DNA from: Millisia brevis NBRC 105863
Lineage (GTDB): Bacteria > Actinomycetota > Actinomycetes > Mycobacteriales > Mycobacteriaceae
DNA length: 64,000 nt
Assembly: GCF_001552615.1 (NCBI RefSeq)
Contig: NZ_BCRN01000001.1
Coordinates: forward strand, 248,001-312,000
Reading direction: 5' to 3'
The notes beneath the pieces were generated by a model that saw only the letters and a program-made list of their open reading frames with translations, searched no databases and was not told where the DNA came from. A program made the translations under genes and the position numbers. How positions within the stretch are numbered: position 1 is the first letter of the stretch; the number at the start of each line of letters is the position of its first letter. Positions 8,136 through 8,919 of the stretch are shown piece after piece.

Positions 8136-8903
8136 GTGAGCGCCCCGGAGGCGTGGCGTCTGACGTCGAACGGCCGGGCGCACGAGGTCACCATCACCGA
8201 CCGGGGCCTCGGACGACGGGTGGCGTGGACCGTCGACGGAGTGCCGGTGGGCGATCGCTGGACGATGGACGACTACCTGGTGCTCGTCGCCGAGGGGTAC
8301 GGAGCCGTCGGACTGCACGCATCGACCCTCGGGCGCATCCGCCGGGTCAGTTGGTTCGACGTCGAATCCGAGGCCGCCGCCCGCGCGGCCAATCGGGTCC
8401 CCCTGTCCGGGAAGGACTTCGATCCCGAGCCGGGTTCGGCGGCGGCGCGTCGGATCGAGTGGATGCGCGCCCACCCCCGGCTGCATACCGCACGCAGCGC
8501 CGCGACCGCAGCGGCCGGGGTGCTGTTCGGCATCCTGATGGTCTCGCTGCTCGCGCAGGTGATTTTCCGCATTCCGTGGCCGGACTGGCGGCTGCCCACC
8601 ATCGCGTGGCCGGACTGGCAGCTGCCGAACATCCCGTGGCCGAGCATTCCGCTACCCGACTGGAACCTGCCCGACTGGGATCTGCCGCCCTGGTTGGCCA
8701 CGATCGCCTCGGCCCTGAAGTACGTGGTCCCGGTCCTGATCGCCGCCGGTATCGCCTACGCGGAAGCCCGCCGACGACGTCACCAGTCGACATACGGCAA
8801 CCAGCCGGAGCCGGAGCCGGAGCCGGAGCCGGAGCCGGAGCCGGAGCCGGAGCCGGAGCCGGAGCCGGAGCCGGAGCCGGAGCCGGAGCCGCGAGACCGG
8901 TAG
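8136..8903 (+). CDS. Membrane protein with WPDW-type repeats and a Pro-Glu repeat tail
   Basis: 255 residues; family not recognised. The N-terminal half is soluble, then a transmembrane helix (about 120-143) leads to a segment built from repeated 'PWPDW-LP' units (about 146-190). A second transmembrane helix (about 195-215), a short basic stretch and a tail of about fourteen Pro-Glu pairs follow. The tail is encoded by a perfect hexanucleotide repeat. The Trp/Pro repeats resemble extended, glycine-poor extracellular linkers. GTG 8136 is the first start in frame; no strong ribosome binding site is visible. Repeat-number changes would lengthen the tail without shifting the frame. Confidence 0.65.
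   Translation: MSAPEAWRLTSNGRAHEVTITDRGLGRRVAWTVDGVPVGDRWTMDDYLVLVAEGYGAVGLHASTLGRIRRVSWFDVESEAAARAANRVPLSGKDFDPEPGSAAARRIEWMRAHPRLHTARSAATAAAGVLFGILMVSLLAQVIFRIPWPDWRLPTIAWPDWQLPNIPWPSIPLPDWNLPDWDLPPWLATIASALKYVVPVLIAAGIAYAEARRRRHQSTYGNQPEPEPEPEPEPEPEPEPEPEPEPEPEPEPRDR
8805..8888 (+). repeat. 14-copy CCGGAG tandem hexamer
   Basis: Fourteen uninterrupted copies of CCGGAG encode the Pro-Glu tail of the membrane protein that ends at 8903. Such perfect arrays are prone to slippage and to assembly collapse, so the copy number shown may differ between clones or be wrong. Confidence 0.95.
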
Positions 8904-8906
8904 CAG

Positions 8907-8919
8907 CCCCCCCCCCCCC
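8907..8919 (+). repeat. Poly-C tract of 13 bases
   Basis: Thirteen consecutive C residues begin three bases after the stop codon of the repeat-tailed membrane protein. They lie between it and the MFS gene. The tract is non-coding and may vary in length. Confidence 0.95.

Follow-up and report, generated by a model that had tools for sequence, protein, structure and literature searches.

The gene at positions 8136-8903 of the window, i.e., of the whole stretch of 64,000 nucleotides of Millisia brevis DNA that was analyzed, ends in a perfect hexamer array, which we read as a tolerated, slippage-grown, in-frame microsatellite that forms the disordered Pro-Glu tail of a two-helix membrane protein. 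We put the probability of this reading at roughly two in three. The initial annotation had described a perfect 84-bp repeat of 14 hexamers in the tail, and this repeat is found at 8803-8886 as the core of a full run of 89 bp. It had also placed a poly-C tract in the same gene. A run of 13 C's is indeed present at 8907-8919, but it starts past the stop codon TAG (8901-8903) and is thus not part of the gene. The relevant features are the following:

7440-8051, minus strand: gene of a divergent TetR-family regulator (Pfam PF00440, 53 bits; phmmer on the flanks)
8077-8088, no strand assigned: operator-like palindrome GAGC-N4-GCTC, putative role
8102-8113, no strand assigned: operator-like palindrome GAGT-N4-ACTC, putative role
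8136-8903, plus strand: gene of the two-helix membrane protein, GTG start, 255 aa (ORF, homologs, AF2 model, hydropathy and charges)
8570-8686, plus strand: W/P repeats (PWPDW / xLPxI, periods of 15 and 30 nt) in the inter-helix loop (TRF, alignments, TRF on homologs)
8803-8891, plus strand: perfect period-6 microsatellite, AGCCGG x14 plus 5 bases, encoding (Pro-Glu)14-Pro (sequence, TRF, codon purity, DNA folding)
8907-8919, plus strand: C13 tract outside the CDS (sequence)
9028-10356, plus strand: gene of an MFS transporter (Pfam MFS_1, 164 bits; start placed from a GGGAGG ribosome-binding-like stretch), a downstream neighbor and not part of the repeat

The hexamer array and the C13 tract

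The perfect run of 89 bp is far longer than expected by chance, as 100 simulations of the window with an order-2 Markov model gave period-6 runs of at most 19 bp. It is followed by the codons for Arg-Asp-Arg and the stop codon. All 15 prolines in the run are encoded by CCG and all 14 glutamates by GAG. With the other genes of the window as reference for codon use (CCG 62%, 600/962; GAG 73%, 543/741; 44 gene calls, from 45 heuristic calls by GC3 minus this ORF), a run this pure has a probability of about 1e-5. The codon purity therefore shows that the array expanded at the level of the DNA. The plus strand of the array has a predicted DNA folding energy of -29.6 kcal/mol, which was equalled by only one of 200 shuffled sequences; the value of the minus strand, -25.9 kcal/mol, was equalled by 23 of 200 and is not unusual.

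The array is pure, lies within an open reading frame, exceeds the chance length and has a frame-keeping unit, and it thus has the sequence features of a slippage-prone coding microsatellite. The slippage-prone look that had been proposed for this locus is borne out by the length and purity of the repeat, by the hairpin potential of its plus strand, and by the undetected MutS and MutL (see below). The proposal that length changes keep the frame also holds, because the unit has 6 bp. An ON/OFF phase-variable gene would need a coding unit that is not a multiple of three, which applies neither to this 6-bp unit nor to the C13 tract behind the stop codon. Steps of 6 bp never shift the frame, and the expected outcome is therefore a tail of variable length, not an ON/OFF switch.

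CCGGAG arrays of at least four copies occur at two sites of the genome, with 14 copies here and six copies elsewhere. Read in its likely coding frame, which is the one richest in GC at third codon positions, the second array (C2:387654-387689; about 2155-2190 of locus L129) encodes Ser-Gly repeats. Arrays of at least eight copies were found anywhere in only four of 401 genomes of the same bacterial family. The long arrays of the other genomes are not tails of homologous proteins: in G078 the array and the homolog lie on different contigs, and neither G132 nor G187 belongs to the 50 genomes that contain a homolog. Further tandem repeats of the window are a degenerate CCG-rich stretch at 40794-40905 and a perfect 17-bp repeat in two copies at 52404-52438.

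The C13 tract begins three bases past the stop codon and 15 bases past the end of the hexamer run. It lies beyond the reading frame and therefore cannot change the protein. In the simulations of the window mentioned above the longest C run had at most 10 bases, and only four sites in the genome have C runs of at least nine bases (13 here, and 11, 10, and 9). Poly-C is not rare in the bacterial family: runs of at least 13 C's were found in 105 of the 401 genomes, some of them at contig ends (L105, L108). Therefore, its mere presence carries little weight, and what is notable is the rank of this run as the longest in its genome. The genome thus has its longest CCGGAG array and its longest C run at a distance of 15 bp from each other, a proximity that was noticed post hoc and is not explained by independent drift. 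The poly-C runs had no common position relative to genes when three other runs of this genome and eight loci elsewhere were compared.

Neither a terminator nor an RNA structure is supported at the C13 region, as the terminator scan gave no terminator-like site in this stretch, and the RNA from 8886 to 9030 does not fold better than shuffled sequences (z -0.41). A separate promoter-like site for the MFS gene lies at 8956-8983 (promoter scan), 36 bp beyond the end of the tract. The sequence GGGAA directly follows the C13 tract (8907-8924 of the window), the C11 run of the same genome (L077, 1501-1516), and a C27 run of G015 (L098, 1501-1532), which may be due to chance. In another genome of the family, G424, overlapping matches to C13 number 1842 on the forward and 1712 on the reverse strand, far more than in all others, and this may represent an assembly artefact or a poly-C-rich genome.

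Slippage in a genome of the NucS type

The genome encodes NucS (PF01939, 145 bits). MutS_I (PF01624) and MutL (PF01119) gave no match in the genome at E 0.001, with each control search positive in 11 of 14 named genomes. It is thus of the NucS type, with NucS found and MutS/MutL not detected. Passages of a study of M. smegmatis report that NucS leaves indels of 1-2 bp unrepaired (PMC11551767). Parts of another paper state that frameshifts are not corrected by NucS repair, attribute high-frequency frameshifts at mycobacterial homopolymers to the missing MutS/L, and name the poly-C of glpK as a slippage tract of M. tuberculosis (PMC10159617). A third paper describes indels in isolates of M. tuberculosis, among them frameshift indels and scars (PMC8339072). 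As far as these passages go, the blindness of NucS to 1-2 bp indels, in a genome without detected MutS/MutL, makes slippage plausible. By analogy, the repair gap would extend to loops of 6 bp and to the species that is the source of the window.

The mechanism that we propose, and with it slippage at this array and its rate, is what we infer from these data. The array would have grown by replication slippage, perhaps aided by self-pairing of CCGG, and slips would probably be left uncorrected in a cell that has NucS without detectable MutS/MutL. A slip by one copy would add or remove two residues while the frame is kept, so that the length of the tail would drift, with little or only a graded effect that is presumably close to neutral. 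The C13 tract would represent a second, separate slippage-prone tract just past the stop codon. The array resembles mycobacterial slippage tracts such as the glpK poly-C, as in both cases an indel-prone repeat would remain unrepaired in a NucS genome without detected MutS/MutL. However, in glpK indels of 1 bp in a coding homopolymer silence the gene, whereas here the coding unit has 6 bp and the homopolymer lies outside of the CDS.

The membrane protein and its family

The protein is predicted to consist of a beta domain (residues about 4-74), a first membrane helix (TM1, about 119-145), a loop with W/P repeats (146-184), a second membrane helix (TM2, about 185-210) with the motif RRRR, and the Pro-Glu tail. 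Two hydrophobic segments were found, for which the 19-residue hydropathy windows begin at residues 121-130 and 186-191. The PWPDW-type repeats that had been noted between two membrane helices are confirmed by this profile and by TRF, which detected a period of 30 at 8570-8642 and a period of 15 at 8655-8686, both in the inter-helix loop. The AF2 model of the membrane protein has a mean pLDDT of 82, and that of the beta domain modelled alone has 91.

The 18 residues that precede TM1 and include its start (104-121) contain five K/R versus one D/E, while the charges are balanced in the wider stretch 75-118 before TM1 (seven versus seven). Residues 210-221 after TM2 contain four K/R and one D/E, and the inter-helix loop one K/R and five D/E. 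By the positive-inside rule both termini, including the strongly acidic tail, should thus be cytoplasmic. This predicted location disfavors surface variation. The Pro-Glu tail is probably disordered in addition to being cytoplasmic.

Homologs are present in 50 of the 401 genomes of the bacterial family, the own genome included, and in nine of 31 genera. A further 14 named loci stem from Nocardioides, Geodermatophilus, Actinocorallia, Actinomadura, and others, and three of them repeat genomes that are already among the 50. The identity to the protein of the window is up to 47%, and 31-43% in alignment A3. The homologs have a common plan, namely, an N-terminal beta domain, TM1, a W/L-P repeat loop, TM2 (mostly with a basic motif), and a variable tail. 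Conserved columns include W7, D34, G100, P114, prolines of the loop, K195, and P199, and most members have the basic motif after TM2; these columns were defined on the same alignments, A1-A4, in which they were observed, and some are not invariant in all four. The protein of the window has these shared columns and thus belongs to this actinobacterial family with beta domain, TM, W-P loop, and TM. As judged from the aligned sequences, the W/P loop is a trait of the protein family and separate from the slippage tract.

The tails are different. The comparison comprised 45 rows, 36 with measured and nine with unmeasured tails (several of the latter are repeats of one genome or in a wrong frame), and covered 30 of the 49 other homolog-bearing genomes of the bacterial family and 11 further named genomes. 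Of the 36 measured tails 35 have 5-61 aa, and one has 140 aa (L060) and may overrun the true protein. A net negative charge was found in 28 of the 36. Among these 36, no other tail contains a Pro-Glu array, which is confined to the window; the tail of L011 is Pro- and Glu-rich, but does not contain a pure array. Within the rows compared, a Pro-Glu tail was therefore rejected as a family trait. Since the other tails compared lack the array, it could have been acquired recently and could serve a specific function.

Repeats as such are more widespread. TRF repeats with a score of at least 40 were detected in the last 210 bases of 18 of 40 homolog genes. In 10 of 37 measurable genes, that of the window included, a repeat lies to at least 80% inside the tail; the other 27 had none at this threshold. 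The periods in these 10 genes are 6, 9, 15, 18, 21, or 27, and each gene has a repeat whose period is divisible by three. In L010 an additional reading with a period of 14, which is not a multiple of three, has a match of 58%, but this place is better described by a repeat of 27 nt. However, the upstream bodies also carry repeats (23 of 40 homolog genes, many of them in the loop), and repeats are therefore not special to the tail.

A difference by whole repeat units was observed most clearly between two Nocardioides relatives. L054, which is a metagenome-assembled genome, and L055 have cores of 218 and 216 aa with 81% identity and tails of 45 and 59 aa. Their alignment contains two clean indels of 7 aa, which match the 21-bp repeat at this place. 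The tail of L052 (52 aa) is one 7-residue step off, but it aligns poorly to the tails of L054 and L055, with scattered gaps and 34-37% identity, and its step may therefore be due to chance.

Pfam and NCBIfam searches with the protein of the window gave matches with E of at most 0.001 only in the Pro-Glu stretch, all far under the cut-offs. Membership in the TonB family was rejected, as NF008084 reached 19.6 versus a cut-off of 315 bits and PF16031 15.5 versus 33 bits, both in the Pro-Glu stretch only, and Trypan_PARP (procyclin, PF05887) was likewise rejected, with 36.1 versus 100 bits and a match to residues 220-252 only. TonB, trypanosome procyclin, and the tail are alike in their (Pro-Glu)n composition, but the match is limited to this stretch. 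The other members had scattered weak matches to Pfam and NCBIfam models, none of which is convincing for the family; FeoB_C (two of 14 members, best E 0.012) and DUF6081 (three of 12 N-domains, best E 0.01) remained below the threshold. A sequence search of the PDB yielded nothing convincing, with best E values of 0.51 for the family profile and 0.073 for the profile of the N-domain.

The N-terminal beta domain (8136-8420 of the window) may be weakly FAIM-like, which is a lead only. In a structural comparison of the modelled domain with VIA-align the first rank was 3mx7 (FAIM-NTD; Z 7.7, 79 of 103 residues, 2.8 A) and the second rank was 2kw1 (Z 6.0, 76 aa, 3.0 A), although Z values under 8 can mean a common arrangement. 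The entry 2kw1 is titled only "CTD," which we take to be the CTD of FAIM. The predicted fold is similar to these two domains, but the identity is only 6-8%. Foldseek gave no match at E 0.001 for the models of the whole protein and the beta domain; for the latter a phage baseplate protein was found first (E 0.33) and 3mx7 third (E 0.39). The FAIM1 profile PF06905 had no match in the genome at E up to 10 (the control was positive in only two of 14 genomes and never above the cut-off), and FAIM1 was also not found by Pfam searches with the N-domains.

The neighboring regulator and alternative explanations

A related TetR gene (E 6e-21 or better, phmmer on the flanks) adjoins the homologous gene in seven of 27 distinct genomes, which represent 30 loci with three repeats and, in the case of the bacterial family, were hand-picked, mostly as best matches, and not at random. 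These are the own genome, G237, G417, G350, G084, G164, and Geodermatophilus (L053); a TetR match in L047 (E 3e-5) at a distance of about 1.2 kb was left out of the count. Four of the pairs are divergent, while in G084 and G164 the TetR gene starts within the membrane-protein gene, 14 bases from its end. In Geodermatophilus sp. TF02-6 (L053, 3785-4501) the genes of TetR and of the membrane protein overlap and both look truncated, which would fit a deletion of the divergent region between them. In L035 (about 5834-6450) and in L057 (M. neoaurum) the homolog is frameshifted by one base compared to the intact copy of G417, and the frameshift does not lie in a long homopolymer.

The two palindromes of the window flank the sequence TATATT at 8092-8097, and the stretch 8075-8090 was the only terminator-like hairpin that the terminator scan found within 7900-9200. 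The pattern GAGY-N4-RCTC, which was defined after viewing the gaps, occurs in one or two copies in the gaps of all four divergent pairs (8052-8135 in the window; L031, L034, and L035), compared to a background of 40 occurrences in the 305,511 bases of L031-L060 that includes the sites in the divergent gaps. In the loci of G084 and G164, no copy of it was detected close to the gene. The shared palindrome suggests an autoregulated TetR/membrane-protein divergon, in which the adjoining TetR protein would be a putative regulator of the gene.

In other bacteria, contingency loci with short repeat units are found in membrane-protein genes. The array shares with them a short tandem repeat in such a gene, but here only the length would change, and the tail is predicted to be inside the cell. 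We regard it as unlikely that the array is a selected contingency locus, in which changes in hexamer copy number tune the length of the tail, and thereby the activity of the protein, and lead to adaptive cell-to-cell variation. The array is the longest CCGGAG array of its genome, arrays of this kind with at least eight copies are confined to the four genomes mentioned above, and the tails of two Nocardioides relatives differ by whole repeat units, all of which fits such a locus; however, a frame-keeping unit does not allow switching, the tail is predicted to be cytoplasmic, and the array is absent from the other tails compared. Nothing in these data favors an adaptively tuned tail length over drift. 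It is more doubtful still that the tail was selected as a protein, i.e., as a functional spacer that forms an extended rod of useful length. The Pro-Glu segment of TonB is such an extended rod, and there are weak, composition-driven matches to TonB models (NF008084, E 0.00065; PF16031, E 0.027); in addition, the acidic tail adjoins the RRRR motif, and L011 also has a tail rich in Pro and Glu. The TonB matches are far under the curated cut-offs, the tail is not conserved in the family, and the codon purity argues for expansion of the DNA and against a protein repeat that has been kept for long.

Two further explanations concern the C13 tract and the assembly, and we consider both of them very improbable. 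The length of the C13 tract might alter the 3' end of the transcript or the spacing before the promoter of the MFS gene, as would be compatible with its rank among the C runs of the genome and the promoter-like site 36 bp beyond it, but the folding and terminator results given above do not support an active role, and the gene that follows the homolog in the G237 locus does not encode an MFS protein, as judged by its first residues. The copy number of the hexamer or the length of the C run could be wrong due to a sequencing or assembly error, since the genome (5.65 Mb, the only one of its genus in the comparison) is a draft of 53 contigs and some C runs of at least 13 bases elsewhere are at contig ends. 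However, the site lies about 257 kb into a contig of 606 kb, and the hexamer run is perfect, in frame, and followed by a normal stop codon. A run of 89 bp fits inside ordinary short reads. The exact number of C's in the C13 tract is the least certain part.

The locus is a clean test case for how coding microsatellites drift in length in bacteria that rely on NucS in place of MutS/MutL, with a pure in-frame array and a non-coding C13 tract within 15 bp of each other. The protein family, which occurs in 50 of 401 genomes, has no convincing model in the libraries searched, and has a TetR neighbor in some of its members, is therefore a modest lead for annotation. It is a long shot that the membrane protein is a partner of the adjoining TetR protein, to which its cytoplasmic FAIM-like domain and its acidic tail would bind, with the tail perhaps as a mimic of the charge of DNA, and that a tail length set by slippage adjusts how strongly the pair represses its own divergon. 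If this were true, an actinobacterial system of membrane signalling that is not named in these libraries would vary between cells in a graded manner.
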